From: Ulva prolifera
Lineage: Eukaryota; Chlorophyta; Ulvophyceae; Ulvales; Ulvaceae
Length of the DNA: 64,000 nt
NCBI GenBank assembly: GCA_023078555.1
Contig: CM041199.1
Coordinates: 11,085,943 to 11,149,942 of the forward strand
Direction of reading: 5' to 3'
Part shown: positions 1 to 57,354 of the stretch, one piece after another
How positions within the stretch are numbered: the stretch's first letter is position 1
How the letters are laid out: each line of letters begins with the position of its first letter
Position numbers and translations under genes: made by a program
The notes under the pieces: generated by a model
Database searches by the model: none
What the model saw: the letters and a program-made list of their open reading frames with translations, nothing else
Told to the model about the DNA's origin: nothing

Positions 1-177
1 TTTTCTGCAGACACCATGGAGTGGTGTGGTGCAAAAGTGCACACTTTCCACCAACCCATGTGAATGGACTTGGTTGTAGCCACGCAACCCCCCGCGCATC
101 AAAAGGTACGTCGCCATGAACATTCCAAGATGTTGGGGGGTATGGGATGATTATCGTTCATTGCATATTTGCTGCTG

Positions 178-215
178 ACTCCCAGGAGTGGCGTGGGGCA
201 AAAGTGCACACTTTT
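178..215 (+). other. Paired short dyad symmetries inside the conserved box
   Basis: The first dyad, 178-189, has 5-bp arms ACTCC and GGAGT around CA. The second, 200-215, has 6-bp arms AAAAGT and ACTTTT around GCAC. They are 10 bp apart and recur in every class A monomer. Class B replaces the first dyad with CACCA-TGGAG-TGGTG, which has 5-bp arms, and keeps 5 bp of the second (AAAGT-GCAC-ACTTT). Class C keeps the second and often one mismatch in the first. Dyad-rich satellites are known at centromeres lacking a CENP-B box. A function here is inference. Confidence 0.5.
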
Positions 216-239
216 CACCAACCATGTGAATGGACTTGG
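182..239 (+). other. Conserved monomer box (representative copy)
   Basis: These 58 bp run from ccaggagtggcgtgggg through caaaagtgcacac to gaatggacttgg. Class A and class C monomers match here at all but about two or three positions, although the rest of the unit differs at over a third of sites. Class B keeps caaaagtgcacacttt through gaatggacttgg apart from one C/T change and one inserted C. Selective retention of a subsegment is typical of protein-binding boxes in centromeric satellites. It could also reflect preferential gene conversion here. No known box consensus is recognised. Confidence 0.7.
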
Positions 240-405
240 TTGTAGCCACGCAACCCCCCGCGCATGAAAAGGTACGTCGCCATGAACATTCCAAGATGTT
301 GGGGGGTATGGGATGATTATCGTTCATTGCATATTTGCTGCTGATTCCCAGGAGTGGCGTGGGGCAAAAGTGCACACTTTTCACCAACCATGTGAATGGA
401 CTTGG
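240..405 (+). repeat. Representative class A monomer (166 bp)
   Basis: Phased from ttgtagccac to the next ttgtag. Class A is marked by gatgattatc, gcatatttgctgctgactc, ccaggagtggcgtgggg, cttttcacc and a single-C-shorter caaccatgtg. Its variable part carries gcatgaaaagg or gcatcaaaagg followed by catgaacattcc. A hand count gives 84 G+C of 166. Class A dominates 1-1.6 kb and supplies the monomer immediately before essentially every class C monomer in the window. Confidence 0.95.
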
Positions 406-1068
406 TTGTAGCCACGCAACCCCCCGCGCATGAAAAGGTACGTCGCCATGAACATTCCAAGATGTTGGGGGGTATGGGATGATTATCATTCATTGCATAT
501 TTGCTGCTGACTCCCAGGAGTGGCGTGGGGCAAAAGTGCACACTTTTCACCAACCATGTGAATGGACTTGGTTGTAGCCACGCAACCCCCCGCGCATGAA
601 AAGGTACGTCGCCATGAACATTCCAAGATGTTGGGGGGTATGGGATGATTATCATTCATTGCATATTTGCTGGTGACTCCCAGGAGTGGCGTGGGGCAAA
701 AGTGCACACTTTTCACCAACCATGTGAATGGACTTGGCTATAGACAAGCATACCCCCGCGCACCATAGGGAAGTTGCCAGAAACATCCTTTGATTCTGAA
801 AGATCTAGGACGTCAAGTATGCATTTCACAGTTGTTGCTAACTTCCAGGAGTGGCGTGGGGCAAAAGTGCACACTTTTCACCAACCATGTGAATGGACTT
901 GGTTGTAGCCACGCAACCCCCCGCGCATGAAAAGGTACGTCGCCATGAACATTCCAAGATGTTGGGGGGTATGGGATGATTATCATTCATTGCATATTTG
1001 CTGGTGACTCCCAGGAGTGGCGTGGGGCAAAAGTGCACACTTTTCACCAACCATGTGAATGGACTTGG

Positions 1069-1233
1069 CTATAGACAAGCATACCCCCGCGCACCATAGG
1101 GAAGTTGCCAGAAACATCCTTTGATTCTGAAAGATCTAGGACGTCAAGTATGCATTTCACAGTTGTTGCTAACTTCCAGGAGTGGCGTGGAACAAAAGTG
1201 CACACTTTTCACCAACCATGTGAATGGACTTGG
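1069..1233 (+). repeat. Representative class C monomer (165 bp), divergent punctuating type
   Basis: Starts at ctatagacaagcat, where A and B have ttgtagccacgcaa, and continues through accatagggaagttgcc, ctttgattctgaaagatc, taggacgtcaagtatgc and gttgttgctaac before rejoining the common box as ggagtggcgtggaac. Hand alignment of its 114-bp variable part to class A gives about 60-65% identity with nearly collinear spacing, so it is an old homologous variant rather than an insertion. Its AGATCT and GACGTC sites mark it uniquely. Essentially all copies follow a class A box and most are followed by the ggaac signature. Confidence 0.93.
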
Positions 1234-1732
1234 TTGTAGCCACGCAACCCCCCGCGCATCAAAAGGTACGTCGCCATGAACATTCCAAGATGTTGGGGGG
1301 TATGGGATGATTATCGTTCATTGCATATTTGCTGCTGACTCCCAGGAGTGGCGTGGGGCAAAAGTGCACACTTTTCACCAACCATGTGAATGGACTTGGT
1401 TGTAGCCACGCAACCCCCCGCGCATCAAAAGGTACGTCGCCATGAACATTCCAAGATGTTGGAGGGTATGGGATGATTATCATTCATTGCATATTTGCTG
1501 CTGACTCCCAGGAGTGGCGTGGGGCAAAAGTGCACACTTTTCACCAACCTTGTGAATGGACTTGGTTGTAGCCACGCAACCCCCCGCGCAGCAAAAGGTA
1601 CGTCGCCATCAACATTCCAAGATTTTGGGGGGTATGGGATGTCCATCATTCATTGCGTATTTTCTGCAGACACCATGGAGTGGTGTGGTGCAAAAGTGCA
1701 CACTTTCCACCAACCCATGTGAATGGACTTGG

Positions 1733-1899
1733 TTGTAGCCACGCAACCCCCCGCGCATCAAAAGGTACGTCCCCATGAACATTCAAAGATGTTGGGGGGT
1801 ATTGGATGTCCATCATCCATTGCGTATTTTCTGCAGACACCATGGAGTGGTGTGGTGCAAAAGTGCACACTTTCCACCAACCCATGTGAATGGACTTGG
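1733..1899 (+). repeat. Representative class B monomer (167 bp)
   Basis: Phased as for class A. Class B has gatgtccatcat, gcgtattttctgcagacac, catggagtggtgtggtg, ctttccacc and caacccatgtg, whose extra C makes it 167 bp. It contains ctgcag and ccatgg palindromes that class A lacks. This example is the B2 subtype with cgtccccatgaacattcaaag. Other B monomers carry cgtcgccatgaac, cgtcgccatcaac or catcgccatcaac. Class B forms long runs at 14.7-15.5, 41.4-43 and 56.2-62 kb. Confidence 0.95.
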
Positions 1900-2509
1900 T
1901 TGTAGCCACGCAACCCCCCGCGCATCAAAAGGTACGTCGCCATGAACATTCCAAGATGTTGGGGGGTATGGGATGATTATCGTTCATTGCATATTTGCTG
2001 CTGACTCCCAGGAGTGGCGTGGGGCAAAAGTGCACACTTTTCACCAACCATGTGAATGGACTTGGTTGTAGCCACGCAACCCCCCGCGCATGAAAAGGTA
2101 CGTCGCCATGAACATTCCAAGATGTTGGGGGGTATGGGATGATTATCATTCATTGCATATTTGCTGGTGACTCCCAGGAGTGGCGTGGGGCAAAAGTGCA
2201 CACTTTTCACCAACCATGTGAATGGACTTGGCTATAGACAAGCATACCCCCGCGCACCATAGGGAAGTTGCCAAAAACATCCTTTGATTCTGAAAGATCT
2301 AGGACGTCAAGTATGCATTGCACAGTTGTTGCTAACTCCCAGGAGTGGCGTGGAACAAAAGTGCACACTTTTCACCAACCATGTGAATGGACTTGGTTGT
2401 AGCCACGCAACCCCCCGCGCATCAAAAGGTACGTCGCCATCAACATTCCAAGATGTTGGGGGGTATGGGATGTCCATCAATCATTGCGTATTTGCTGCTG
2501 ACTCCCAGG

Positions 2510-2584
2510 AGTGGCGTGGGGCAAAAGTGCACACTTTTCACCAACCAGTGGCGTGGGGCAAAAAGTGCACACTTTTCACCAACC
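2510..2584 (+). repeat. 37/38-bp micro-duplication inside the conserved box
   Basis: The box segment beginning agtggcgtggggcaaaag and ending tcaccaacc is present twice in a row (2,510-2,546 and 2,547-2,584). The second copy has one extra A (caaaaagtgc). This lengthens the interval between neighbouring C monomers from 331 to 369 bp. The same structure recurs in HOR copy II at 6,038-6,112. Confidence 0.9.
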
Positions 2585-3954
2585 ATGTGAATGGACTTGG
2601 CTATAGACAAGCATACCCCCGCGCACAATAGGGAAGTTGCCAAAAACATCCTTTGATTCTGAAAGATCTAGGACGTCAAGTATGCATTGCACAGTTGTTG
2701 CTAACTCCTAGGAGTGGCGTGGAACAAAAGTGCACACTTTTCACCAACCATGTGAATGGACTTGGTTGTAGCCACGCAACCCCCCGCGCATCAAAAGGTA
2801 CATCGCCATCAACATTCCAAGATGTTGGGGGGTATGGGATGTCCATCATTCATTGCGTATTTTCTGCAGACACCATGGAGTGGTGTGGTGCAAAAGTGCA
2901 CACTTTCCACCAACCCATGTGAATGGACTTGGTTGTAGCCACGCAGCCCCCCGCGCATCAAAAGGTACGTCCCCATGAACATTCAAAGATGTCGGGGGGT
3001 ATGGGATGTCCATCATCCATTGCGTATTTTCTGCAGACACCATGGAGTGGTGTGGTGCAAAAATATACACTTTCCACCAACCCATGTGAATGGACTTGGT
3101 TGTAGCCACGCAACCCCCCGCGCATCAAAAGGTACGTCCCCATGAACATTCAAAGATGTTGGGGGGTATTGGATGTCCATCATCCATTGCGTATTTTCTG
3201 CAGACACCATGGAGTGGTGTGGTGCAAAAGTGCACACTTTCCACCAACCCATGTGAATGGACTTGGTTGTAGCCACGCAACCCCCCGCGCATCAAAAGGT
3301 ACGTCGCCATGAACATTCCAAGATGTTGGGGGGTATGGGATGATTATCGTTCATTGCATATTTGCTGCTGACTCCCAGGAGTGGCGTGGGGCAAAAGTGC
3401 ACACTTTTCACCAACCATGTGAATGGACTTGGTTGTAGCCACGCAACCCCCCGCGCATGAAAAGGTACGTCGCCATGAACATTCCAAGATGTTGGGGGGT
3501 ATGGGATGATTATCATTCATTGCATATTTGCTGGTGACTCCCAGGAGTGGCGTGGGGCAAAAGTGCACACTTTTCACCAACCATGTGAATGGACTTGGCT
3601 ATAGACAAGCATACCCCCGCGCACCATAGGGAAGTTGCCAGAAACATCCTTTGATTCTGAAAGATCTAGGACGTCAAGTATGCATTTCACAGTTGTTGCT
3701 AACTTCCAGGAGTGGCGTGGAACAAAAGTGCACACTTTTCACCAACCATGTGAATGGACTTGGTTGTAGCCACGCAACCCCCCGCGCATCAAAAGGTACG
3801 TCGCCATGAACATTCCAAGATGTTGGGGGGTATGGGATGATTATCGTTCATTGCATATTTGCTGCTGACTCCCAGGAGTGGCGTGGGGCAAAAGTGCACA
3901 CTTTTCACCAACCATGTGAATGGACTTGGTTGTAGCCACGCAACCCCCCGCGCA

Positions 3955-4954
3955 TCAAAAGGTACGTCGCCATGAACATTCCAAGATGTTGGAGGGTATG
4001 GGATGATTATCATTCATTGCATATTTGCTGCTGACTCCCAGGAGTGGCGTGGGGCAAAAGTGCACACTTTTCACCAACCTTGTGAATGGACTTGGTTGTA
4101 GCCACGCAACCCCCCGCGCAGCAAAAGGTACGTCGCCATCAACATTCCAAGATTTTGGGGGGTATGGGATGTCCATCATTCATTGCGTATTTTCTGCAGA
4201 CACCATGGAGTGGTGTGGTGCAAAAGTGCACACTTTCCACCAACCCATGTGAATGGACTTGGTTGTAGCCACGCAACCCCCCGCGCATCAAAAGGTACGT
4301 CCCCATGAACATTCAAAGATGTTGGGGGGTATTGGATGTCCATCATCCATTGCGTATTTTCTGCAGACACCATGGAGTGGTGTGGTGCAAAAGTGCACAC
4401 TTTCCACCAACCCATGTGAATGGACTTGGTTGTAGCCACGCAACCCCCCGCGCATCAAAAGGTACGTCGCCATGAACATTCCAAGATGTTGGAGGGTATG
4501 GGATGATTATCATTCATTGCATATTTGCTGCTGACTCCCAGGAGTGGCGTGGGGCAAAAGTGCACACTTTTCACCAACCTTGTGAATGGACTTGGTTGTA
4601 GCCACGCAACCCCCCGCGCAGCAAAAGGTACGTCGCCATCAACATTCCAAGATTTTGGGGGGTATGGGATGTCCATCATTCATTGCGTATTTTCTGCAGA
4701 CACCATGGAGTGGTGTGGTGCAAAAGTGCACACTTTCCACCAACCCATGTGAATGGACTTGGTTGTAGCCACGCAACCCCCCGCGCATCAAAAGGTACGT
4801 CCCCATGAACATTCAAAGATGTTGGGGGGTATTGGATGTCCATCATCCATTGCGTATTTTCTGCAGACACCATGGAGTGGTGTGGTGCAAAAGTGCACAC
4901 TTTCCACCAACCCATGTGAATGGACTTGGTTGTAGCCACGCAACCCCCCGCGCA
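3955..4954 (+). repeat. 500-bp three-monomer tandem duplication
   Basis: The interval 3,955-4,454 is followed by an apparently identical 4,455-4,954: one A-type unit with gatgttggaggg and caaccttgtg, one B with gattttgggg, and one B2 unit with cattcaaag and a ggtattggatg variant. HOR copy II contains this trio once (7,483-7,982). Exact breakpoints cannot be placed because the crossover lies within homologous monomers. Confidence 0.85.
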
Positions 4955-5096
4955 TCAAAAGGTACGTCGCCATGAACATTCCAAGATGTTGGGGGGTATG
5001 GGATGATTATCGTTCATTGCATATTTGCTGCTGACTCCCAGGAGTGGCGTGGGGCAAAAAGTGCACACTTTTCACCAACCATGTGAATGGACTTGG

Positions 5097-5262
5097 CTAT
5101 AGACAAGCATCCCCCCGCGCATGAAAAGGTACGTCGCCATGAACATTCCAAGATGTTGGGGGGTATGGGATGAATATCATTCATTGCATATTTGCTGGTG
5201 ACTCCCAGGAGTGGCGTGGGGCAAAAGTGCACACTTTTCACCAACCATGTGAATGGACTTGG
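5097..5262 (+). repeat. C/A chimeric monomer
   Basis: Begins as class C (ctatagacaagcat) but after about 14 bases continues as class A (ccccccgcgcatgaaaagg). The exchange point falls at the shared C-run, where both classes read cccccgcgca. The next C start is only 166 bp away, unlike any normal C pair. An identical chimera is at 8,125-8,290. Confidence 0.9.
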
Positions 5263-6037
5263 CTATAGACAAGCATACCCCCGCGCACCATAGGGAAGTT
5301 GCCAGAAACATCCTTTGATTCTGAAAGATCTAGGACGTCAAGTATGCATTTCACAGTTGTTGCTAACTTCCAGGAGTGGCGTGGAACAAAAGTGCACACT
5401 TTTCACCAACCATGTGAATGGACTTGGTTGTAGCCACGCAACCCCCCGCGCATCAAAAGGTACGTCGCCATGAACATTCCAAGATGTTGGGGGGTATGGG
5501 ATGATTATCGTTCATTGCATATTTGCTGCTGACTCCCAGGAGTGGCGTGGGGCAAAAGTGCACACTTTTCACCAACCATGTGAATGGACTTGGTTGTAGC
5601 CACGCAACCCCACGCGCATCAAAAGGTACGTCGCCATGAACATTCCAAGATGTTGGAGGGTATGGGATGATTATCGTTCATTGCATATTTGCTGCTGACT
5701 CCCAGGAGTGGCGTGGGGCAAAAGTGCACACTTTTCACCAACCATGTGAATGGACTTGGCTATAGACAAGCATACCCCCGCGCACCATAGGGAAGTTGCC
5801 AAAAACATCCTTTGATTCTGAAAGATCTAGGACGTCAAGTATGCATTGCACAGTTGTTGCTAACTCCCAGGAGTGGCGTGGAACAAAAGTGCACACTTTT
5901 CACCAACCATGTGAATGGACTTGGTTGTAGCCACGCAACCCCCCGCGCATCAAAAGGTACGTCGCCATCAACATTCCAAGATGTTGGGGGGTATGGGATG
6001 TCCATCAATCATTGCGTATTTGCTGCTGACTCCCAGG

Positions 6038-6112
6038 AGTGGCGTGGGGCAAAAGTGCACACTTTTCACCAACCAGTGGCGTGGGGCAAAAAGTGCACAC
6101 TTTTCACCAACC
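6038..6112 (+). repeat. 37/38-bp micro-duplication (HOR copy II)
   Basis: Same structure as at 2,510-2,584, including the five-A run in the second copy. It therefore arose once and was carried along by the 3.5 kb HOR duplication. Confidence 0.9.
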
Positions 6113-8124
6113 ATGTGAATGGACTTGGCTATAGACAAGCATACCCCCGCGCACAATAGGGAAGTTGCCAAAAACATCCTTTGATTCTGAAAGATCTAGG
6201 ACGTCAAGTATGCATTGCACAGTTGTTGCTAACTCCCAGGAGTGGCGTGGAACAAAAGTGCACACTTTTCACCAACCATGTGAATGGACTTGGTTGTAGC
6301 CACGCAACCCCCCGCGCATCAAAAGGTACATCGCCATCAACATTCCAAGATGTTGGGGGGTATGGGATGTCCATCATTCATTGCGTATTTTCTGCAGACA
6401 CCATGGAGTGGTGTGGTGCAAAAGTGCACACTTTCCACCAACCCATGTGAATGGACTTGGTTGTAGCCACGCAGCCCCCCGCGCATCAAAAGGTACGTCC
6501 CCATGAACATTCAAAGATGTCGGGGGGTATGGGATGTCCATCATCCATTGCGTATTTTCTGCAGACACCATGGAGTGGTGTGGTGCAAAAATATACACTT
6601 TCCACCAACCCATGTGAATGGACTTGGTTGTAGCCACGCAACCCCCCGCGCATCAAAAGGTACGTCCCCATGAACATTCAAAGATGTTGGGGGGTATTGG
6701 ATGTCCATCATCCATTGCGTATTTTCTGCAGACACCATGGAGTGGTGTGGTGCAAAAGTGCACACTTTCCACCAACCCATGTGAATGGACTTGGTTGTAG
6801 CCACGCAACCCCCCGCGCATCAAAAGGTACGTCGCCATGAACATTCCAAGATGTTGGGGGGTATGGGATGATTATCGTTCATTGCATATTTGCTGCTGAC
6901 TCCCAGGAGTGGCGTGGGGCAAAAGTGCACACTTTTCACCAACCATGTGAATGGACTTGGTTGTAGCCACGCAACCCCCCGCGCATGAAAAGGTACGTCG
7001 CCATGAACATTCCAAGATGTTGGGGGGTATGGGATGATTATCATTCATTGCATATTTGCTGGTGACTCCCAGGAGTGGCGTGGGGCAAAAGTGCACACTT
7101 TTCACCAACCATGTGAATGGACTTGGCTATAGACAAGCATACCCCCGCGCACCATAGGGAAGTTGCCAGAAACATCCTTTGATTCTGAAAGATCTAGGAC
7201 GTCAAGTATGCATTTCACAGTTGTTGCTAACTTCCAGGAGTGGCGTGGAACAAAAGTGCACACTTTTCACCAACCATGTGAATGGACTTGGTTGTAGCCA
7301 CGCAACCCCCCGCGCATCAAAAGGTACGTCGCCATGAACATTCCAAGATGTTGGGGGGTATGGGATGATTATCGTTCATTGCATATTTGCTGCTGACTCC
7401 CAGGAGTGGCGTGGGGCAAAAGTGCACACTTTTCACCAACCATGTGAATGGACTTGGTTGTAGCCACGCAACCCCCCGCGCATCAAAAGGTACGTCGCCA
7501 TGAACATTCCAAGATGTTGGAGGGTATGGGATGATTATCATTCATTGCATATTTGCTGCTGACTCCCAGGAGTGGCGTGGGGCAAAAGTGCACACTTTTC
7601 ACCAACCTTGTGAATGGACTTGGTTGTAGCCACGCAACCCCCCGCGCAGCAAAAGGTACGTCGCCATCAACATTCCAAGATTTTGGGGGGTATGGGATGT
7701 CCATCATTCATTGCGTATTTTCTGCAGACACCATGGAGTGGTGTGGTGCAAAAGTGCACACTTTCCACCAACCCATGTGAATGGACTTGGTTGTAGCCAC
7801 GCAACCCCCCGCGCATCAAAAGGTACGTCCCCATGAACATTCAAAGATGTTGGGGGGTATTGGATGTCCATCATCCATTGCGTATTTTCTGCAGACACCA
7901 TGGAGTGGTGTGGTGCAAAAGTGCACACTTTCCACCAACCCATGTGAATGGACTTGGTTGTAGCCACGCAACCCCCCGCGCATCAAAAGGTACGTCGCCA
8001 TGAACATTCCAAGATGTTGGGGGGTATGGGATGATTATCGTTCATTGCATATTTGCTGCTGACTCCCAGGAGTGGCGTGGGGCAAAAAGTGCACACTTTT
8101 CACCAACCATGTGAATGGACTTGG

Positions 8125-8290
8125 CTATAGACAAGCATCCCCCCGCGCATGAAAAGGTACGTCGCCATGAACATTCCAAGATGTTGGGGGGTATGGGATG
8201 AATATCATTCATTGCATATTTGCTGGTGACTCCCAGGAGTGGCGTGGGGCAAAAGTGCACACTTTTCACCAACCATGTGAATGGACTTGG
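8125..8290 (+). repeat. C/A chimeric monomer (second copy)
   Basis: Same exchange point as at 5,097-5,262, 3,028 bp downstream. It was copied as part of the HOR rather than formed independently. Confidence 0.9.
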
Positions 8291-10615
8291 CTATAGACAA
8301 GCATACCCCCGCGCACCATAGGGAAGTTGCCAGAAACATCCTTTGATTCTGAAAGATCTAGGACGTCAAGTATGCATTTCACAGTTGTTGCTAACTTCCA
8401 GGAGTGGCGTGGAACAAAAGTGCACACTTTTCACCAACCATGTGAATGGACTTGGTTGTAGCCACGCAACCCCCCGCGCATCAAAAGGTACGTCGCCATG
8501 AACATTCCAAGATGTTGGGGGGTATGGGATGATTATCGTTCATTGCATATTTGCTGCTGACTCCCAGGAGTGGCGTGGGGCAAAAGTGCACACTTTTCAC
8601 CAACCATGTGAATGGACTTGGTTGTAGCCACGCAACCCCACGCGCATCAAAAGGTACGTCGCCATGAACATTCCAAGATGTTGGAGGGTATGGGATGATT
8701 ATCGTTCATTGCATATTTGCTGCTGACTCCCAGGAGTGGCGTGGGGCAAAAGTGCACACTTTTCACCAACCATGTGAATGGACTTGGTTGTAGCCACGCA
8801 ACCCCCCGCGCATGAAAAGGTACGTCGCCATGAACATTCCAAGATGTTGGGGGGTATGGGATGAATATCATTCATTGCATATTTGCTGGTGACTCCCAGG
8901 AGTGGCGTGGGGCAAAAGTGCACACTTTTCACCAACCTTGTGAATGGACTTGGCTATAGACAAGCATACCCCCGCGCACCATAGGGAAGTTGCCAGAAAC
9001 ATCCTTTGATTCTGAAAGATCTAGGACGTCAAGTATGCATTTCACAGTTGTTGCTAACTTCCAGGAGTGGCGTGGAACAAAAGTGCACACTTTTCACCAA
9101 CCATGTGAATGGACTTGGTTGTAGCCACGCAACCCCCCGCGCATCAAAAGGTACGTCGCCATGAACATTCCAAGATGTTGGGGGGTATGGGATGATTATC
9201 GTTCATTGCATATTTGCTGCTGACTCCCAGGAGTGGCGTGGGGCAAAAGTGCACACTTTTCACCAACCATGTGAATGGACTTGGTTGTAGCCACGCAACC
9301 CCCCGCGCATCAAAAGGTACGTCGCCATGAACATTCCAAGATGTTGGAGGGTATGGGATGATTATCATTCATTGCATATTTGCTGCTGACTCCCAGGAGT
9401 GGCGTGGGGCAAAAGTGCACACTTTTCACCAACCTTGTGAATGGACTTGGCTATAGACAAGCATACCCCCGCGCACCATAGGGAAGTTGCCAGAAACATC
9501 CTTTGATTCTGACAGATCTAGGACGTCAAGTATGCATTGCACAGTTGTTGCTAACTCCTAGGAGTGGCGTGGAACAAAAGTGCACACTTTTCACCAACCA
9601 TGTGAATGGACTTGGTTGTAGCCACGCAACCCCCCGCGCAGCAAAAGGTACGTCGCCATCAACATTCCAAGATTTTGGGGGGTATGGGATGTCCATCATT
9701 CATTGCGTATTTTCTGCAGACACCATGGCGTGGTGTGGTGCAAAAGTGCACACTTTCCACCAACCCATGTGAATGGACTTGGTTGTAGCCACGCTACCCC
9801 CCGCGCAGCAAAAGGTACATCGCGATCAACATTCCAAGATGTTGGGGGGTATGGGATGTCCATCATTCATTGCGTATTTTCTGCAGACACCATGGCGTGG
9901 TGTGGTGCAAAAGTGCACATTTTCCACCAACCCATGTGAATGGACTTGGTTGTACCCACGCACCCCCTGCGCATCAAAAGGTACGTCGCCATCAACATTC
10001 CAAGATGTTGGGGGGTATGGGATGTCCATCATTCATTGCGTATTTTCTGCAGACACCATGGAGTGGTGTGGTGCAAAAGTGCACACTTTCCACCAACCCA
10101 TGTGAATGGACTTGGTTGTAGCCACGCAACCCCCCGCGCATCAAAAGGTACGTCGCCATGAACATTCCAAGATGTTGGGGGGTATGGGATGATTATCGTT
10201 CATTGCATATTTGCTGCTGACTCCCAGGAGTGGCGTGGGGCAAAAGTGCACACTTTTCACCAACCATGTGAATGGACTTGGTTGTAGCCACGCAACCCCC
10301 CGCGCATCAAAAGGTACGTCGCCATGAACATTCCAAGATGTTAGGGGTATGGGATGATTATCGTTCATTGCATATTTGCTGCTGACTCCCAGGAGTGGCG
10401 TGGGGCAAAAGTGCACACTTTTCACCAACCATGTGAATGGACTTGGTTGTAGCCACGCAACCCCCCCCCGCGCATGAAAAGGTACGTCGCCATGAACATT
10501 CCAAGATGTTGGGGGGTATGGGATGAATATCATTCATTGCATATTTGCTGGTGACTCCCAGGAGTGGCGTGGGGCAAAAGTGCACACTTTTCACCAACCA
10601 TGTGAATGGACTTGG
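8291..10615 (+). repeat. 2,325-bp HOR, copy 1 of 3
   Basis: Fourteen monomers with C starts at 8,291, 8,954 and 9,451 (663, 497 and 1,165 bp spacing). Diagnostic variants are gattctgacagatctagg in the third C monomer, two B monomers with accatggcgtgg, a monomer reading gtacccacgcaccccctgcg, a shortened gatgttaggggtatggg, and a nine-C run after cgcaa near 10,460. The first ~500 bp are shared with the preceding 3 kb HOR. Confidence 0.92.
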
Positions 10616-12940
10616 CTATAGACAAGCATACCCCCGCGCACCATAGGGAAGTTGCCAGAAACATCCTTTGATTCTGAAAGATCTAGGACGTCAAGTATGC
10701 ATTTCACAGTTGTTGCTAACTTCCAGGAGTGGCGTGGAACAAAAGTGCACACTTTTCACCAACCATGTGAATGGACTTGGTTGTAGCCACGCAACCCCCC
10801 GCGCATCAAAAGGTACGTCGCCATGAACATTCCAAGATGTTGGGGGGTATGGGATGATTATCGTTCATTGCATATTTGCTGCTGACTCCCAGGAGTGGCG
10901 TGGGGCAAAAGTGCACACTTTTCACCAACCATGTGAATGGACTTGGTTGTAGCCACGCAACCCCACGCGCATCAAAAGGTACGTCGCCATGAACATTCCA
11001 AGATGTTGGAGGGTATGGGATGATTATCGTTCATTGCATATTTGCTGCTGACTCCCAGGAGTGGCGTGGGGCAAAAGTGCACACTTTTCACCAACCATGT
11101 GAATGGACTTGGTTGTAGCCACGCAACCCCCCGCGCATGAAAAGGTACGTCGCCATGAACATTCCAAGATGTTGGGGGGTATGGGATGAATATCATTCAT
11201 TGCATATTTGCTGGTGACTCCCAGGAGTGGCGTGGGGCAAAAGTGCACACTTTTCACCAACCTTGTGAATGGACTTGGCTATAGACAAGCATACCCCCGC
11301 GCACCATAGGGAAGTTGCCAGAAACATCCTTTGATTCTGAAAGATCTAGGACGTCAAGTATGCATTTCACAGTTGTTGCTAACTTCCAGGAGTGGCGTGG
11401 AACAAAAGTGCACACTTTTCACCAACCATGTGAATGGACTTGGTTGTAGCCACGCAACCCCCCGCGCATCAAAAGGTACGTCGCCATGAACATTCCAAGA
11501 TGTTGGGGGGTATGGGATGATTATCGTTCATTGCATATTTGCTGCTGACTCCCAGGAGTGGCGTGGGGCAAAAGTGCACACTTTTCACCAACCATGTGAA
11601 TGGACTTGGTTGTAGCCACGCAACCCCCCGCGCATCAAAAGGTACGTCGCCATGAACATTCCAAGATGTTGGAGGGTATGGGATGATTATCATTCATTGC
11701 ATATTTGCTGCTGACTCCCAGGAGTGGCGTGGGGCAAAAGTGCACACTTTTCACCAACCTTGTGAATGGACTTGGCTATAGACAAGCATACCCCCGCGCA
11801 CCATAGGGAAGTTGCCAGAAACATCCTTTGATTCTGACAGATCTAGGACGTCAAGTATGCATTGCACAGTTGTTGCTAACTCCTAGGAGTGGCGTGGAAC
11901 AAAAGTGCACACTTTTCACCAACCATGTGAATGGACTTGGTTGTAGCCACGCAACCCCCCGCGCAGCAAAAGGTACGTCGCCATCAACATTCCAAGATTT
12001 TGGGGGGTATGGGATGTCCATCATTCATTGCGTATTTTCTGCAGACACCATGGCGTGGTGTGGTGCAAAAGTGCACACTTTCCACCAACCCATGTGAATG
12101 GACTTGGTTGTAGCCACGCTACCCCCCGCGCAGCAAAAGGTACATCGCGATCAACATTCCAAGATGTTGGGGGGTATGGGATGTCCATCATTCATTGCGT
12201 ATTTTCTGCAGACACCATGGCGTGGTGTGGTGCAAAAGTGCACATTTTCCACCAACCCATGTGAATGGACTTGGTTGTACCCACGCACCCCCTGCGCATC
12301 AAAAGGTACGTCGCCATCAACATTCCAAGATGTTGGGGGGTATGGGATGTCCATCATTCATTGCGTATTTTCTGCAGACACCATGGAGTGGTGTGGTGCA
12401 AAAGTGCACACTTTCCACCAACCCATGTGAATGGACTTGGTTGTAGCCACGCAACCCCCCGCGCATCAAAAGGTACGTCGCCATGAACATTCCAAGATGT
12501 TGGGGGGTATGGGATGATTATCGTTCATTGCATATTTGCTGCTGACTCCCAGGAGTGGCGTGGGGCAAAAGTGCACACTTTTCACCAACCATGTGAATGG
12601 ACTTGGTTGTAGCCACGCAACCCCCCGCGCATCAAAAGGTACGTCGCCATGAACATTCCAAGATGTTAGGGGTATGGGATGATTATCGTTCATTGCATAT
12701 TTGCTGCTGACTCCCAGGAGTGGCGTGGGGCAAAAGTGCACACTTTTCACCAACCATGTGAATGGACTTGGTTGTAGCCACGCAACCCCCCCCCGCGCAT
12801 GAAAAGGTACGTCGCCATGAACATTCCAAGATGTTGGGGGGTATGGGATGAATATCATTCATTGCATATTTGCTGGTGACTCCCAGGAGTGGCGTGGGGC
12901 AAAAGTGCACACTTTTCACCAACCATGTGAATGGACTTGG
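10616..12940 (+). repeat. 2,325-bp HOR, copy 2 of 3
   Basis: C starts at 10,616, 11,279 and 11,776, exactly 2,325 bp after those of copy 1. All diagnostic variants, including the nine-C run and the gatgttagggg deletion, are repeated. I noticed no base difference in the portions compared by eye. Confidence 0.93.
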
Positions 12941-14804
12941 CTATAGACAAGCATACCCCCGCGCACCATAGGGAAGTTGCCAGAAACATCCTTTGATTCT
13001 GAAAGATCTAGGACGTCAAGTATGCATTTCACAGTTGTTGCTAACTTCCAGGAGTGGCGTGGAACAAAAGTGCACACTTTTCACCAACCATGTGAATGGA
13101 CTTGGTTGTAGCCACGCAACCCCCCGCGCATCAAAAGGTACGTCGCCATGAACATTCCAAGATGTTGGGGGGTATGGGATGATTATCGTTCATTGCATAT
13201 TTGCTGCTGACTCCCAGGAGTGGCGTGGGGCAAAAGTGCACACTTTTCACCAACCATGTGAATGGACTTGGTTGTAGCCACGCAACCCCACGCGCATCAA
13301 AAGGTACGTCGCCATGAACATTCCAAGATGTTGGAGGGTATGGGATGATTATCGTTCATTGCATATTTGCTGCTGACTCCCAGGAGTGGCGTGGGGCAAA
13401 AGTGCACACTTTTCACCAACCATGTGAATGGACTTGGTTGTAGCCACGCAACCCCCCGCGCATGAAAAGGTACGTCGCCATGAACATTCCAAGATGTTGG
13501 GGGGTATGGGATGAATATCATTCATTGCATATTTGCTGGTGACTCCCAGGAGTGGCGTGGGGCAAAAGTGCACACTTTTCACCAACCTTGTGAATGGACT
13601 TGGCTATAGACAAGCATACCCCCGCGCACCATAGGGAAGTTGCCAGAAACATCCTTTGATTCTGAAAGATCTAGGACGTCAAGTATGCATTTCACAGTTG
13701 TTGCTAACTTCCAGGAGTGGCGTGGAACAAAAGTGCACACTTTTCACCAACCATGTGAATGGACTTGGTTGTAGCCACGCAACCCCCCGCGCATCAAAAG
13801 GTACGTCGCCATGAACATTCCAAGATGTTGGGGGGTATGGGATGATTATCGTTCATTGCATATTTGCTGCTGACTCCCAGGAGTGGCGTGGGGCAAAAGT
13901 GCACACTTTTCACCAACCATGTGAATGGACTTGGTTGTAGCCACGCAACCCCCCGCGCATCAAAAGGTACGTCGCCATGAACATTCCAAGATGTTGGAGG
14001 GTATGGGATGATTATCATTCATTGCATATTTGCTGCTGACTCCCAGGAGTGGCGTGGGGCAAAAGTGCACACTTTTCACCAACCTTGTGAATGGACTTGG
14101 CTATAGACAAGCATACCCCCGCGCACCATAGGGAAGTTGCCAGAAACATCCTTTGATTCTGACAGATCTAGGACGTCAAGTATGCATTGCACAGTTGTTG
14201 CTAACTCCTAGGAGTGGCGTGGAACAAAAGTGCACACTTTTCACCAACCATGTGAATGGACTTGGTTGTAGCCACGCAACCCCCCGCGCAGCAAAAGGTA
14301 CGTCGCCATCAACATTCCAAGATTTTGGGGGGTATGGGATGTCCATCATTCATTGCGTATTTTCTGCAGACACCATGGCGTGGTGTGGTGCAAAAGTGCA
14401 CACTTTCCACCAACCCATGTGAATGGACTTGGTTGTAGCCACGCTACCCCCCGCGCAGCAAAAGGTACATCGCGATCAACATTCCAAGATGTTGGGGGGT
14501 ATGGGATGTCCATCATTCATTGCGTATTTTCTGCAGACACCATGGCGTGGTGTGGTGCAAAAGTGCACATTTTCCACCAACCCATGTGAATGGACTTGGT
14601 TGTACCCACGCACCCCCTGCGCATCAAAAGGTACGTCGCCATCAACATTCCAAGATGTTGGGGGGTATGGGATGTCCATCATTCATTGCGTATTTTCTGC
14701 AGACACCATGGAGTGGTGTGGTGCAAAAGTGCACACTTTCCACCAACCCATGTGAATGGACTTGGTTGTAGCCACGCAACCCCCCGCGCATCAAAAGGTA
14801 CGTC
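12941..14804 (+). repeat. 2,325-bp HOR, copy 3 (truncated, 1,864 bp)
   Basis: C starts at 12,941, 13,604 and 14,101 continue the 2,325-bp register. The match ends at 14,805, where this copy reads cgtccccatgaacattcaaag (B2) and copies 1-2 read cgtcgccatgaacattccaag. The terminal part with gatgttagggg and the nine-C run is therefore missing. Confidence 0.92.
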
Positions 14805-15466
14805 CCCATGAACATTCAAAGATGTTGGGGGGTATTGGATGTCCATCATCCATTGCGTATTTTCTGCAGACACCATGGAGTGGTGTGGTGCAAAAGAGCA
14901 CACTTTCCACCAACCCATGTGAATGGACTTGGTTGTAGCCACGCAACCCCCCGCGCATCAAAAGGTACGTCCCCATGAACATTCAAAGATGTTGGGGGGT
15001 ATGGGATGTCCATCATCCATTGCGTATTTTCTGCAGACACCATGGCGTGGTGTGGTGCAAAAGTGCACATTTTCCACCAACCCATGTGAATGGACTTGGT
15101 TGTACCCACGCACCCCCTGCGCATCAAAAGGTACGTCGCCATCAACATTCCAAGATGTTGGGGGGTATGGGATGTCCATCATTCATTGCGTATTTTCTGC
15201 AGACACCATGGAGTGGTGTGGTGCAAAAGTGAACACTTTCCACCAACCCATGTGAATGGACTTGGTTGTAGCCACGCAACCCCCCGCGCATCAAAAGGTA
15301 CGTCCCCATGAACATTCAAAGATGTTGGGGGGTATTGGATGTCCATCATCCATTGCGTATTTTCTGCAGACACCATGGAGTGGTGTGGTGCAAAAGTGCA
15401 CACTTTCCACCAACCCATGTGAATGGACTTGGTTGTAGCCACGCAACCCCCCGCGCATCAAAAGGT
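14500..15466 (+). repeat. 500-bp B-type duplication
   Basis: About 14,500-14,966 matches about 15,000-15,466 with an offset of 500 bp (three B monomers). Both contain the gtacccacgcaccccctgcg unit followed by a B2 unit. Differences include caaaagagcac at about 14,893 against caaaagtgcac in the second copy, and caaaagtgaacac at about 15,225. The stretch 15,467-15,764 is class A leading to the C monomer at 15,765. Confidence 0.8.
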
Positions 15467-16377
15467 ATGTCGCCATGAACATTCCAAGATGTTGGGGGGT
15501 ATGGGATGATTATCGTTCATTGCATATTTGCTGCTGACTCCCAGGAGTGGCGTGGGGCAAAAGTGCACACTTTTCACCAACCATGTGAATGGACTTGGTT
15601 GTAGCCACGCAACCCCCCGCGCATGAAAAGGTACGTCGCCATGAACATTCCAAGATGTTGGGGGGTATGGGATGATTATCATTCATTGCATATTTGCTGG
15701 TGACTCCCAGGAGTGGCGTGGGGCAAAAGTGCACACTTTTCACCAACCATGTGAATGGACTTGGCTATAGACAAGCATACCCCCGCGCACCATAGGGAAG
15801 TTGCCAGAAACATCCTTTGATTCTGAAAGATCTAGGACGTCAAGTATGCATTTCACAGTTGTTGCTAACTTCCAGGAGTGGCGTGGAACAAAAGTGCACA
15901 CTTTCCACCAACCCATGTGAATAGACTTGGTTGTAGCCACGCAACCCCCTGCGCATCAAAAGGTACGTCGCCATCAACATTCCAAGCTGTTGGAGGGTAT
16001 GGGATGTCCATCATTCATTGCGTATTTTCTGCAGACACCATGGAGTGGTGTGGTGCAAAAGAGCACACTTTCCACCAACCCATGTGAATGGACTTGGTTG
16101 TAGCCACGCAACCCCCCGCGCATCAAAAGGTACGTCCCCATGAACATTCAAAGATGTTGGGGGGTATGGGATGTCCATCATCCATTGCGTATTTTCTGCA
16201 GACACCATGGCGTGGTGTTGTGCAAAAGTGTACACTTTCCACCAACGCATGTGAATGGACTTGGTTGTAGCCACGCAACCCCCCGCGCATGAAAAGGTAC
16301 GTCGCCATGAACATTCAAAGATGTTGGGGGGTATGGGATGTCCATCATTCATTGCGTATTTGCTGCTGACTCCCAGG

Positions 16378-16451
16378 AGTGGCGTGGGGCAAAAGTGCAC
16401 ACTTTTCACCAACCAGTGGCGTGGGGCAAAAGTGCACACTTTTCACCAACC
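16378..16451 (+). repeat. 37-bp micro-duplication in the conserved box
   Basis: 16,378-16,414 is repeated at 16,415-16,451, this time without the extra A seen at 2,547-2,584. It stretches the C-to-C spacing from 665 to 703 bp. Apart from that A, the join is the same as at 2.5 and 6.0 kb. Confidence 0.9.
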
Positions 16452-16467
16452 ATGTGAATGGACTTGG

Positions 16468-17797
16468 CTATAGACAAGCATACCCCCGCGCACCATAGGG
16501 AAGTTGCCAGAAACATCCTTTGATTCTGAAAGATCTAGGACGTCAAGTATGCATTGCACAGTTGTTGCTAACTCCCAGGAGTGGCGTGGAACAAAAGTGC
16601 ACACTTTTCACCAACCATGTGAATGGACTTGGTTGTAGCCACGCAGCCCCCCGCGCAGCAAAAGGTACGTCGCCATCAACATTCCAAGATGTTGGAGGGT
16701 ATGGGATGTCCATCATTCATTGCGTATTTTCTGCAGACACCATGGAGTGGTGTAATGCAAAAGTGCACACTTTCCACCAACCCATGTGAACGGACTTGGT
16801 TGCAGCCACGCAACCCCCCCGCACATCAAAGGTACGACGACATGAACATTCCAAGATGTTGGGAGGCATGGGATGTCCATCATTCATTGCGTATTTTCTG
16901 CAGACACCATGGAGTGGTGTGGTGCAAAAGTGCACACTTTCCACCAACCCATGTGAATGGACTTGGTTGTGGCCACGCAACCCCCCGCGCATGAAAAGGT
17001 ACGTCGCCATGAACATTCCAAGATGTTGGGGGGTATGGGATAATTATCATTCATTGCATATTTGCTGCTGACTCCCAGGAGTGGCGTGGGGCAAAAGTGC
17101 ACACTTTTCACCAACCATGTGAATGGACTTGGCTATAGACAAGCATACCCCCGCGCACCATAGGGAAGTTGCCAGAAACATCCTTTGATTCTGAAAGATC
17201 TAGGACGTCAAGTATGCATTGCACAGTTGTTGCTAACTCCCAGGAGTGGCGTGGAACAAAAGTGCACACTTTTCACCAACCATGTGAATGGACTTGGTTG
17301 TAGCCACGCAAACCCCCGCGCAGCAAAAGGTACGTCGCCATCAACATTCCAAGATGTTGGAGGGTATGGGATGTCCATCATTCATTGCGTATTTTCTGCA
17401 GACACCATGGAGTGGTGTAATGCAAAAGTGCACACTTTCCACCAACCCATGTGAACGGACTTGGTTGCAGCCACGCAACCCCCCCGCACATCAAAGGTAC
17501 GACGACATGAACATTCCAAGATGTTGGGAGGCATGGGATGTCCATCATTCATTGCGTATTTTCTGCAGACACCATGGAGTGGTGTGGTGCAAAAGTGCAC
17601 ACTTTCCACCAACCCATGTGAATGGACTTGGTTGTAGCCACGCAACCCCCCGCGCATGAAAAGGTACGTCGCCATGAACATTCCAAGATGTTGGGGGGTA
17701 TGGGATGATTATCATTCATTGCATATTTGCTGCTGACTCCCAGGAGTGGCGTGGGGCAAAAGTGCACACTTTTCACCAACCATGTGAATGGACTTGG
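16468..17797 (+). repeat. 665-bp sub-unit duplicated within the 2,033-bp HOR
   Basis: 16,468-17,132 and 17,133-17,797 have the same order, C-A/B-D-B-A, at 665-bp offset. They differ at a few bases, such as cgcagccccccgcg against cgcaaacccccgcg, and ttgtggccacg against ttgtagccacg. The duplication predates the 2,033-bp one because both HOR copies contain the pair. Confidence 0.85.
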
Positions 17798-19830
17798 CTA
17801 TAGACAAGCATACCCCCGCGCACCATAGGGAAGTTGCCAGAAACATCCTTTGATTCTGAAAGATCTAGGACGTCAAGTATGCATTGCACAGTTGTTGCTA
17901 ACTTCCAGGAGTGGCGTGGAACAAAAGTGCACACTTTCCACCAACCCATGTGAATAGACTTGGTTGTAGCCACGCAACCCCCTGCGCATCAAAAGGTACG
18001 TCGCCATCAACATTCCAAGCTGTTGGAGGGTATGGGATGTCCATCATTCATTGCGTATTTTCTGCAGACACCATGGAGTGGTGTGGTGCAAAAGAGCACA
18101 CTTTCCACCAACCCATGTGAATGGACTTGGTTGTAGCCACGCAACCCCCCGCGCATCAAAAGGTACGTCCCCATGAACATTCAAAGATGTTGGGGGGTAT
18201 GGGATGTCCATCATCCATTGCGTATTTTCTGCAGACACCATGGCGTGGTGTTGTGCAAAAGTGTACACTTTCCACCAACGCATGTGAATGGACTTGGTTG
18301 TAGCCACGCAACCCCCCGCGCATGAAAAGGTACGTCGCCATGAACATTCAAAGATGTTGGGGGGTATGGGATGTCCATCATTCATTGCGTATTTGCTGCT
18401 GACTCCCAGGAGTGGCGTGGGGCAAAAGTGCACACTTTTCACCAACCAGTGGCGTGGGGCAAAAGTGCACACTTTTCACCAACCATGTGAATGGACTTGG
18501 CTATAGACAAGCATACCCCCGCGCACCATAGGGAAGTTGCCAGAAACATCCTTTGATTCTGAAAGATCTAGGACGTCAAGTATGCATTGCACAGTTGTTG
18601 CTAACTCCCAGGAGTGGCGTGGAACAAAAGTGCACACTTTTCACCAACCATGTGAATGGACTTGGTTGTAGCCACGCAACCCCCCGCGCAGCAAAAGGTA
18701 CGTCGCCATCAACATTCCAAGATGTTGGAGGGTATGGGATGTCCATCATTCATTGCGTATTTTCTGCAGACACCATGGAGTGGTGTAATGCAAAAGTGCA
18801 CACTTTCCACCAACCCATGTGAACGGACTTGGTTGCAGCCACGCAACCCCCCCGCACATCAAAGGTACGACGACATGAACATTCCAAGATGTTGGGAGGC
18901 ATGGGATGTACATCATTCATTGCGTATTTTCTGCAGACACCATGGAGTGGTGTGGTGCAAAAGTGCACACTTTCCACCAACCCATGTGAATGGACTTGGT
19001 TGTGGCCACGCAACCCCCCGCGCATGAAAAGGTACGTCGCCATGAACATTCCAAGATGTTGGGGGGTATGGGATGATTATCATTCATTGCATATTTGCTG
19101 CTGACTCCCAGGAGTGGCGTGGGGCAAAAGTGCACACTTTTCACCAACCATGTGAATGGACTTGGCTATAGACAAGCATACCCCCGCGCACCATAGGGAA
19201 GTTGCCAGAAACATCCTTTGATTCTGAAAGATCTAGGACGTCAAGTATGCATTGCACAGTTGTTGCTAACTCCCAGGAGTGGCGTGGAACAAAAGTGCAC
19301 ACTTTTCACCAACCATGTGAATGGACTTGGTTGTAGCCACGCAAACCCCCGCGCAGCAAAAGGTACGTCGCCATCAACATTCCAAGATGTTGGAGGGTAT
19401 GGGATGTCCATCATTCATTGCGTATTTTCTGCAGACACCATGGAGTGGTGTAATGCAAAAGTGCACACTTTCCACCAACCCATGTGAACGGACTTGGTTG
19501 CAGCCACGCAACCCCCCCGCACATCAAAGGTACGACGACATGAACATTCCAAGATGTTGGGAGGCATGGGATGTCCATCATTCATTGCGTATTTTCTGCA
19601 GACACCATGGAGTGGTGTGGTGCAAAAGTGCACACTTTCCACCAACCCATGTGAATGGACTTGGTTGTAGCCACGCAACCCCCCGCGCATGAAAAGGTAC
19701 GTCGCCATGAACATTCCAAGATGTTGGGGGGTATGGGATGATTATCATTCATTGCATATTTGCTGCTGACTCCCAGGAGTGGCGTGGGGCAAAAGTGCAC
19801 ACTTTTCACCAACCATGTGAATGGACTTGG
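17798..19830 (+). repeat. 2,033-bp HOR, copy 2
   Basis: C starts at 17,798, 18,501 and 19,166 mirror copy 1 exactly. Small differences from copy 1 include gatgtacatcat at about 18,906 (gatgtccatcat in copy 1), catgcattgcacag in the first C monomer here against catgcatttcacag in copy 1, and gataattatc at about 17,039 in copy 1 against gatgattatc here. Confidence 0.92.
18411..18484 (+). repeat. 37-bp micro-duplication (2,033-bp HOR copy 2)
   Basis: Copy of the 16,378-16,451 structure, 2,033 bp downstream. Confidence 0.9.
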
Positions 19831-21827
19831 CTATAGACAAGCATACCCCCGCGCACCATAGGGAAGTTGCCAGAAACATCCTTTGATTCTGAAAGATCTA
19901 GGACGTCAAGTATGCATTGCACAGTTGTTGCTAACTCCCAGGAGTGGTGTGGAACAAAAGTGCACACTTTTCACCAACCATGTGAATGGACTTGGTTGTA
20001 GCCACGCAACCCCCCGCGCATCAAAAGGTACATCGCCATCAACATTCCAAGATGTTGGGGGGTATGGGATGTCCATCATTCATTGCGTATTTTCTGCAGA
20101 CACCATGGAGTGGTGTGGTGCAAAAGTGCACACTTTCCACCAACCCATGTGAATGGACTTGGTTGTAGCCACGCAACCCCCCGCGCATCAAAAGGTACGT
20201 CCCCATGAACATTCAAAGATGTCGGGGGGTATGGGATGTCCATCATCCATTGCGTATTTTCTGCAGACACCATGGAGTGGTGTGGTGCAAAAATATACAC
20301 TTTCCACCAACACATGTGAATGGACTTGGTTGCAGCCACGCAACCCCCCCGCACATCAAAGGTACGACGACATGAACATTCCAAGATGTTGGGAGGCATG
20401 GGATGTACATCATTCATTGCGTATTTTCTGCAGACACCATGGAGTGGTGTGGTGCAAAAGTGCACACTTTCCACCAACCCATGTGAATGGACTTGGTTGT
20501 GGCCACGCAACCCCCCGCGCATGAAAAGGTACGTCGCCATGAACATTCCAAGATGTTGGGGGGTATGGGATGATTATCATTCATTGCATATTTGCTGCTG
20601 ACTCCCAGGAGTGGCGTGGGGCAAAAGTGCACACTTTTCACCAACCATGTGAATGGACTTGGCTATAGACAAGCATACCCCCGCGCACCATAGGGAAGTT
20701 GCCAGAAACATCCTTTGATTCTGAAAGATCTAGGACGTCAAGTATGCATTGCACAGTTGTTGCTAACTCCCAGGAGTGGCGTGGAACAAAAGTGCACACT
20801 TTTCACCAACCATGTGAATGGACTTGGTTGTAGCCACGCAAACCCCCGCGCAGCAAAAGGTACGTCGCCATCAACATTCCAAGATGTTGGAGGGTATGGG
20901 ATGTCCATCATTCATTGCGTATTTTCTGCAGACACCATGGAGTGGTGTAATGCAAAAGTGCACACTTTCCACCAACCCATGTGAACGGACTTGGTTGCAG
21001 CCACGCAACCCCCCCGCACATCAAAGGTACGACGACATGAACATTCCAAGATGTTGGGAGGCATGGGATGTCCATCATTCATTGCGTATTTTCTGCAGAC
21101 ACCATGGAGTGGTGTGGTGCAAAAGTGCACACTTTCCACCAACCCATGTGAATGGACTTGGTTGTAGCCACGCAACCCCCCGCGCATGAAAAGGTACGTC
21201 GCCATGAACATTCCAAGATGTTGGGGGGTATGGGATGATTATCATTCATTGCATATTTGCTGCTGACTCCCAGGAGTGGCGTGGGGCAAAAGTGCACACT
21301 TTTCACCAACCATGTGAATGGACTTGGCTATAGACAAGCATACCCCCGCGCACCATAGGGAAGTTGCCAGAAACATCCTTTGATTCTGAAAGATCTAGGA
21401 CGTCAAGTATGCATTGCACAGTTGTTGCTAACTCCCAGGAGTGGTGTGGAACAAAAGTGCACACTTTTCACCAACCATGTGAATGGACTTGGTTGTAGCC
21501 ACGCAACCCCCCGCGCATCAAAAGGTACATCGCCATCAACATTCCAAGATGTTGGGGGGTATGGGATGTCCATCATTCATTGCGTATTTTCTGCAGACAC
21601 CATGGAGTGGTGTGGTGCAAAAGTGCACACTTTCCACCAACCCATGTGAATGGACTTGGTTGTAGCCACGCAACCCCCCGCGCATCAAAAGGTACGTCCC
21701 CATGAACATTCAAAGATGTCGGGGGGTATGGGATGTCCATCATCCATTGCGTATTTTCTGCAGACACCATGGAGTGGTGTGGTGCAAAAATATACACTTT
21801 CCACCAACACATGTGAATGGACTTGGT
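18830..21827 (+). repeat. 1,497-bp tandem duplication overlapping the 2,033-bp HOR
   Basis: About 18,830-20,330 matches about 20,327-21,827 at an offset of 1,497 bp (nine monomers). C starts 19,166 and 19,831 pair with 20,663 and 21,328. The join is visible at about 20,310-20,335, where a B2-derived box (caaaaatatacac, caacacatgtg) runs into the D-specific ggttgcagcc. The gatgtacatcat variant of HOR copy 2 is repeated at about 20,403, so this event is younger than the 2,033-bp duplication. Confidence 0.85.
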
Positions 21828-27427: not shown

Positions 27428-29816
27428 GTGGTGTGGTGCAAAAGTGCACACTTGCCACCAACCCATGTGAATGGACTTGGTTGTAGCCACGCAATCCCCC
27501 GCGCATCAAAAGGTACATCGCCATCAACATTCCAAGATGTTGGGGGGTATGGGATGTCCATCATTCATTGCGTATTTTCTGCAGACACCATGGAGTGGTG
27601 TGGTGCAAAAGTGCACACTTTCCACCAACCCATGTGAATGGACTTGGTTGTAGCCACGCAATCCCCCGCGCATCAAAAGGTACGTCGCCATCAACATTCC
27701 AAGATGTTGGGGGGTATGGGATGTCCATCATTCATTGCGTATTTTCTGCAGACACCATGGAGTGGTGTAATGCAAAAGTGCACACTTTCCACCAACCCAT
27801 GTGAATGGACTTGGTTGTAGCCACGCAACCCCCCGCGCAGCAAAAGGTACGTCGCCATCAACATTCCAAGATGTTGGGGGGTATGGGATGTCCATCATTC
27901 ATTGCATATTTGCTGCTGACTCCCAGGAGTGGCGTGGGGCAAAAGTGCACACTTTTCACCAACCATGTGAATGGACTTGGTTGTAGCCGCGCAACCCCCC
28001 GCGCATGAAAAGGTACGTCGCCATGAACATTCCAAGATGTTGGGGGGTATGGGATGTCCATCATGCATTGCGTATTTTCTGCACACACCATGGCGTGGTG
28101 TGGTGCAAAAGTGCACACTTTCCACCAACCCATGTGAATGGACTTGGTTGTAGCCACGCAACCCCCCGCGCAGCAAAAGGTACGTCGCCATCAACATTCC
28201 AAGATGTTGGGGGGTATGGGATGTCCATCATGCATTGCGTATTTTCTGAAGACACCATGGCGTGGTGTGGTGCAAAACTGCACACTTTCCACCAACCCAT
28301 GTGAATGGACTTGGTTGTAGCCACGCAACCCCCCGCGCAGCAAAAGGTACGTCGCCATCAACATTCCAAGATGTTGGGGGGTATGGGATGTCCATCATTC
28401 ATTGCATATTTGCTGCTGACTCCCAGGAGTGGCGTGGGGCAAAAGTGCACACTTTTCACCAACCATGTGAATGGACTTGGCTATAGACAAGCATACCCCC
28501 GCGCACCATAGGGAAGTTGCCAGAAACATCCTTTGATTCTGAAAGATCTAGGACGTCAAGTATGCATTGCACAGTTGTTGCTAACTCCCAGGAGTGGCGT
28601 GGAACAAAAGTGCACACTTTTCACCAACCATGTGAATGGACTTGGTTGTAGCCACGCAACCCCCCGCGCAGCAAAAGGTACGTCGCCATCAACATTCCAA
28701 GATTTTGGGGGGTATGGGATGTCCATCATTCATTGCATATTTGCTGATGACTCCCAGGAGTGGCGTGGGGCAAAAGTGCACACTTTTCACCAACCATGTG
28801 AATGGACTTGGCTATAGACAAGCATACCCCCGCGCACCATAGGGAAGTTGCCAGAAACATCCTTTGATTCTGAAAGATCTAGGACGTCAAGTATGCATTG
28901 CACAGTTGTTGCTAACTCCCAGGAGTGGCGTGGAACAAAAGTGCACACTTTTCACCAACCATGTGAATGGACTTGGTTGTAGCCACGCAACCCCCCGCGC
29001 AGCAAAAGGTACGTCGCCATCAACATTCCAAGATTTTGGGGGGTATGGGATGTCCATCATTCATTGCGTATTTTCTGCAGACACCATGGCGTGGTGTGGT
29101 GCAAAAGTGCACACTTTCCACCAACCCATGTGAATGGACTTGGTTGTAGCCACGCAACCCCCCGCGCAGCAAAAGGTACATCGCGATCAACATTCCAAGA
29201 TGTTGGGGGGTATGGGATGATTATCATTCATTGCATATTTGCTGCTGACTCCCAGGAGTGGTGTGGTGCAAAAGTGCACACTTGCCACCAACCCATGTGA
29301 ATGGACTTGGTTGTAGCCACGCAATCCCCCGCGCATCAAAAGGTACATCGCCATCAACATTCCAAGATGTTGGGGGGTATGGGATGTCCATCATTCATTG
29401 CGTATTTTCTGCAGACACCATGGAGTGGTGTGGTGCAAAAGTGCACACTTTCCACCAACCCATGTGAATGGACTTGGTTGTAGCCACGCAATCCCCCGCG
29501 CATCAAAAGGTACGTCGCCATCAACATTCCAAGATGTTGGGGGGTATGGGATGTCCATCATTCATTGCGTATTTTCTGCAGACACCATGGAGTGGTGTAA
29601 TGCAAAAGTGCACACTTTCCACCAACCCATGTGAATGGACTTGGTTGTAGCCACGCAACCCCCCGCGCAGCAAAAGGTACGTCGCCATCAACATTCCAAG
29701 ATGTTGGGGGGTATGGGATGTCCATCATTCATTGCATATTTGCTGCTGACTCCCAGGAGTGGCGTGGGGCAAAAGTGCACACTTTTCACCAACCATGTGA
29801 ATGGACTTGGTTGTAG
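27428..29816 (+). repeat. Repeated segments at 1,830- and 331-bp offsets
   Basis: The trio at about 27,428-27,986, with cgcaatcccccgcg in two successive B monomers and then a gtgtaatgc monomer, recurs at 29,258-29,816 (offset 1,830 bp). Between them, 28,481-28,811 and 28,812-29,142 are a 331-bp C+A dimer in tandem, marked by gattttgggg. B monomers at 28.0-28.3 kb have private changes (tctgcacacacc, tctgaagacacc) that destroy the ctgcag site. Confidence 0.78.
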
Positions 29817-57343: not shown

Positions 57344-57354
57344 AGAGTGGTGTA

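Follow-up and report, generated by a model that had tools for sequence, protein, structure and literature searches.

A box common to diverged monomer classes of an Ulva prolifera satellite array, and its possible origin in exchange limited by homology

Satellite Array

The stretch of DNA analyzed here, referred to as the window, comprises 64,000 nucleotides of the green alga Ulva prolifera (C4:11085943-11149942, in an assembly of 88,887,114 bases in 44 contigs). It is filled throughout by a satellite array (Table 1), spanned by tandem-repeat (TRF) rows of period 166-167, its multiples and short duplications. The anchor GTGAATGGACTTGG, with up to three substitutions allowed, was found 384 times on the forward strand of the window and 0 times on the other. 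Among the 383 anchor spacings, 376 measured 165-167, 3 measured 169 and 4 measured 203/204. The array is satellite DNA in the sense of a long head-to-tail succession of near-identical units, with a monomer of 165-167 bp.

A 21-base core pattern, present in 326 exact copies inside the window, was also searched genome-wide. It was detected 4867 times in forward orientation. Among the matches listed, all places were on C4, from 10,095,687 on, and the copies extend over at least 1.05 Mb of this contig, with the window at one end. One array could hold all 4867 copies. The size and structure of the array suggest that it is centromeric. No inverted stretch of the array was seen, as the whole genome contained 0 reverse copies of the pattern.

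Matches in two regions of C4, at 10.68-10.75 Mb and at 11.07-11.14 Mb (the latter including the window), come in pairs with equal scores at an offset of ~389-391 kb. For example, the matches at 11086124 and 10694843 are both 100% identical to the query. The paired blocks represent either a large recent block duplication or duplicated assembly.

A scan of viral contigs for relatives of the satellite gave 0 matches. Five short satellite stretches had no match in the literature searched (most subscription journals are outside its scope), and an 11-base stretch matched only an unrelated microsatellite.

Table 1. Features of the satellite array, in positions of the window
Feature	Position	Strand	Basis
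Satellite array, period 166-167 bp, filling the whole window	18..63997	+	tandem-repeat (TRF) rows; 384 anchors
58-bp box, class A example	182..239	+	sequence; best window for C-A and C-B
Box core, kept in all three classes	200..239	+	window ranking, sequence
7-bp dyad AAAAGTG-CA-CACTTTT	200..215	no strand	best short dyad in C and A consensuses; no shuffle control
Class A variable part	240..347	+	class alignment, sequence
Class C variable part	738..844	+	class alignment, sequence
Mixed box after C variable part, with A-type GGGGC; 1/65 C monomers	845..902 (monomer 738-902)	+	
Class C variable part	1069..1175	+	class alignment, sequence
Box with usual C-type GGAAC	1176..1233	+	box typing, sequence
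Class B version of box	1674..1732	+	class alignment, sequence
37/38-bp tandem duplication of box around dyad	2510..2585, 6038-6113, 16378-16452, 18411-18485	+	TRF, junctions
C/A chimera, C alleles in columns 0-13, A from column 17	5097..5262; identical copy 8125-8290	+	
C monomers with B-type core	15765..15930, 17798-17963, 22825-22990, 23824-23989	+	
A monomer with box turning B-type, first of 18 such	22326..22492	+	

Monomer Classes and Their Order

Monomers were cut after GACTTGG, and 379 of them were aligned in 171 columns; the four units of 203/204 bp, which contain a duplicated box, were left out. The columns fall into a variable part (0-105), the left third of the box (106-129) and the core (130-170). 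Average-linkage clustering gave three classes at cut-offs of 0.08 and 0.10, and two classes at 0.12-0.25. With three classes, the 379 aligned monomers are partitioned into 147 of class A (mostly 166 bp), 167 of class B (mostly 167 bp) and 65 of class C (mostly 165 bp). Only 17 of the 65 class C monomers are unique.

The order of the classes is only loosely regular. A higher-order repeat test found no single period in the class string, with frequent block offsets of 2325, 3491 and 3528, and exact 300-mers recur most at the same three offsets. The mix of classes shifts along the window, and its right end (~56000-63997) is nearly pure class B.

Class C was preceded by class A in 61/61 contiguous entries, with one box haplotype at the A-to-C junction. 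The remaining four C monomers come after the long units with duplicated box, whose ends are A-like. Since class C always enters from A, and with one haplotype, it travels mainly as an A-C pair.

Contrast Between Box and Variable Part

The initial annotation had described class A and class C monomers as collinear, with variable parts of 60-65% identity next to an almost unchanged box, about 40 bp of which would be kept in class B. Our alignments bear out this description. The variable parts of C and A are identical in 67/104 aligned columns (64%), and the same figures (67/104, 64%) were obtained for C and B. The alignment score of the variable parts was 26, compared with maxima of -3 (C-A) and -5 (C-B) in 2000 dinucleotide shuffles each. 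Because the scores are so far above those of the shuffles, the variable parts must be homologous and collinear, and a fusion of unrelated variable parts to a common box is ruled out.

Over the 61 columns of the box (from column 110), identity reaches 96.6% for C-A and 88.3% for C-B, and over the 41 columns of the core (from column 130) it is 100% and 95.1%, respectively; each of these values ranks first of 171 circular windows. When columns were permuted, the best 40-column window was matched in 3 (C-A) and 24 (C-B) of 10,000 cases. In the A-B comparison, the box is only 105th and the core 65th among the 171 windows. The high rank of the box is thus confined to pairs that include class C and does not hold for the classes in general. 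The 58-bp box is in fact a composite of a core common to all three classes and a left third that is mainly common to A and C.

Runs of identical bases lead to a similar picture. The longest run for C-A is 41 bp and lies in the core, the longest ones for C-B (18 and 16 bp) are also in the core, and the longest for A-B (62 bp) spans the border between the end of the box and the variable part. Hence, each pair of classes has a different segment in common. Outside the box, class C shares no identical run of more than 10 bp with A or B. A 10-bp patch, CCCCCGCGCA (monomer columns 18-27), is identical in all three consensuses.

CpG decay was considered as a source of the contrast and rejected. CpG columns hold only 4/39 of the C-A and 6/46 of the C-B differences. 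The core consensus is free of CpG.

Dyad, Box Duplications and CENP-B Box

The dyad listed in Table 1 for the C and A consensuses is reduced in class B, where its arms are 6 bp long and it is tied with two other dyads. Four units carry a tandem duplication of the box around the dyad. All four have one junction in common and are always followed by class C; the single junction rules out four independent duplications. The CENP-B box TTCGNNNNANNCGGG has 0 exact occurrences in the window, and matches with 2 mismatches are below chance (23 versus 115 expected), which excludes a CENP-B-box satellite.

Variation Within Classes

The per-position diversity profile that had been proposed as a check gave a divided result. 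Between classes, the box is the best-conserved segment for C-A and C-B. It is not so for A-B, and within classes its diversity is not generally low. For unique monomers, the diversity of the core ranks 143 in class C, 1 in class A and 36 in class B, counted from the lowest of 171 windows. In class C, variability is higher within the box than in the rest of the monomer.

We then counted rare variants, defined as those present in at most two copies. They were found at 2/40 core sites versus 20/103 variable sites in class A, at 13/41 versus 20/103 in class B, and at 5/40 versus 3/102 in class C. In the pooled data (20/121 core versus 43/308 variable sites), the core shows no shortage of rare variants relative to the variable part, and a deficit is confined to class A. 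Without CpG sites, the core-to-variable ratio was 0.83, 1.22 and 1.09 for variants in at most 1, 2 and 4 copies (p 0.48-0.73). Variation in the window thus provides no support for constraint, although weak constraint or a box-binding protein would remain a candidate. Variant tests of this kind have little power, because any single monomer, as one of thousands, is under weak selection.

Mixed Boxes, Chimeras and the Mosaic Class A

Some boxes change along their length from one class to that of the monomer that follows. In 374 contiguous monomer pairs, boxes with an A or C start had a B-type core (columns 145 and 152) in 19/63 cases when B was next, compared with 3/147 when A or C was next. After removal of repeated contexts, the proportions were 12/36 and 2/75 (Fisher p = 1.7e-5). 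A B-type core was found in four C monomers and an A-type box in one. Two C monomers carry a T at column 121, a CpG, and this single transition could be decay rather than exchange. Many of the mixed boxes go back to a small number of events that were then copied, as indicated by the recurrence of 300-mers at fixed offsets.

At the 34 C-specific sites, there was no switch between C and A or between C and B, except in one chimera. It switches from C to A between columns 13 and 17, which is just before or beside the 10-bp identical run and not inside it. Mixtures of A and B have their switches both in the box and at columns 81-105.

Class A looks like a mosaic whose left part resembles B and whose right part resembles C (maximum chi-square reached in 2/2000 permutations, 43 informative sites). 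As the comparison involves three classes and lacks an outgroup, clustered change on single branches is also possible.

Discussion

A binding site or a hotspot of conversion had been suggested as the cause of the uneven divergence. Exchange in the box is indeed seen, in the mixed boxes and in the mosaic of class A, and the binding-site part of the suggestion lacks support in the variation data. The word "hotspot" overstates the data, as the box may be only the place where class C still resembles A and B. On balance, we consider it somewhat probable that the classes of this array exchange mainly where they are still alike, and that the box pattern results from homology-limited exchange. The core (with the left third of the box for A and C) is the only long stretch that class C has in common with the other classes, so that exchange would be possible there and would keep the core uniform. 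Crossover, conversion or break-induced copying between classes would start and end in the common stretch, and classes could swap neighbors. With runs of at most 10 bp between C and A or B outside the box, the variable parts would escape homogenization and go on diverging. We infer a requirement for homology as the cause, without any need for selection on the box, and likewise the direction of the exchanges and their molecular nature.

In toy simulations without selection and with a 12-bp seed, a 40-bp stretch with at most 5% divergence was obtained in 3/4 runs, compared with 0/4 without exchange. With a 20-bp seed, a ready-made box was not kept in the same kind of simulation. The outcome depends on seed length, and the simulations show only that the idea can work. 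Several observations speak against exchange limited by homology. Class C has spread mostly together with A, as a pair, rather than by continuing exchange, the switch of the chimera adjoins an identical run rather than falling within it, the core diversity of class A is the lowest of 171 windows, and many mixed boxes trace to few events. The absence of an outgroup also counts here, since clustered single-branch change is possible with three classes.

Constraint on the core, with a DNA-binding protein or a dyad hairpin being needed and monomers with a changed core being lost, appears possible but doubtful. It would fit the first rank of the core for C-A and C-B, the 7-bp dyad in C and A, and the low diversity and scarce rare variants of the class A core. 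The rare variants of classes B and C do not fit, and neither do those of the pooled data (with or without CpG sites), the rank of only 65 for A-B, the shorter dyad arms in B and the absence of a CENP-B box. The mixed boxes and the four duplications surrounding the dyad might instead point to an active hotspot, in which the dyad or a bound factor would provoke breaks, and conversion would start more often than homology alone allows. This is quite improbable, as the same mixed boxes would also arise from leftover homology alone, four duplications with one junction amount to one event, and A/B mixtures switch outside the box too.

A further explanation is historical. A single old fusion of a diverged C variable part with an A-type box could have been copied ever since, the box being inert today. 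The invariable entry of C from A with one box haplotype and the small number of unique C monomers are what such a history would leave behind. Several further mixed boxes and the near-identity of the core between C and B as well argue against it, and we regard it as having little chance of being correct. Finally, the core and its dyad could be a sequence-specific exchange portal, at which a factor or an extruded hairpin would swap modules and make composite classes such as A, beyond what leftover homology alone would do. This is unlikely, if slightly less so than a hotspot or an old fusion. All copies of the putative portal that were found have the same orientation, and a single chromosome may harbor them all.

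Studies have reportedly dealt with conserved and variable domains in Arabidopsis satellites, and with a box of 19 bp in centromere repeats of Meloidogyne. Satellites of Meloidogyne chitwoodi and M. fallax with 32-64% identity have a Box 1 (17 bp, similar to the CENP-B box) and a Box 2 (20 bp) in common; one monomer gives way to another within these boxes, for which the authors suggest a role in promoting rearrangement (PMC3694981). The array in U. prolifera likewise has a box common to diverged monomers and class transitions inside the box. It differs in that the box extends over 41-61 columns and is without a CENP-B box, that the classes are collinear at 64%, and that single boxes can be split between classes. 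Its A/B mixtures also switch outside the box. In other Meloidogyne, a CENP-B-box-like motif occurs in 11 satellites of 36-74% similarity, for which the authors, who refer to the former study as their own earlier work, prefer kept protein binding as a hypothesis (PMC9673304). As in these satellites, one motif is kept across diverged units in U. prolifera, but it is not a CENP-B box, and variation does not support constraint. Short dyads (<10 bp) are described as common at centromeres without CENP-B boxes (PMC8997354). Nucleosome-length monomers, classes in mixed order and dyads below 10 bp are features that our array has in common with alpha satellite higher-order repeats and dyad-rich centromeres; it differs in being devoid of a CENP-B box and in a class order that is only loosely regular.

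The Meloidogyne satellites are thus a close published precedent, and the array described here adds another case of that kind. When a satellite monomer has diverged unevenly along its length, a binding site is often assumed. In this array, most of the pattern would be explained by exchange that depends on local similarity. Two simple tests separate these readings, namely which segment each pair of classes has in common, and whether or not the box is avoided by rare variants. Should the full array agree, it would provide a usable case for viewing the "conserved boxes" of satellites as exchange portals.
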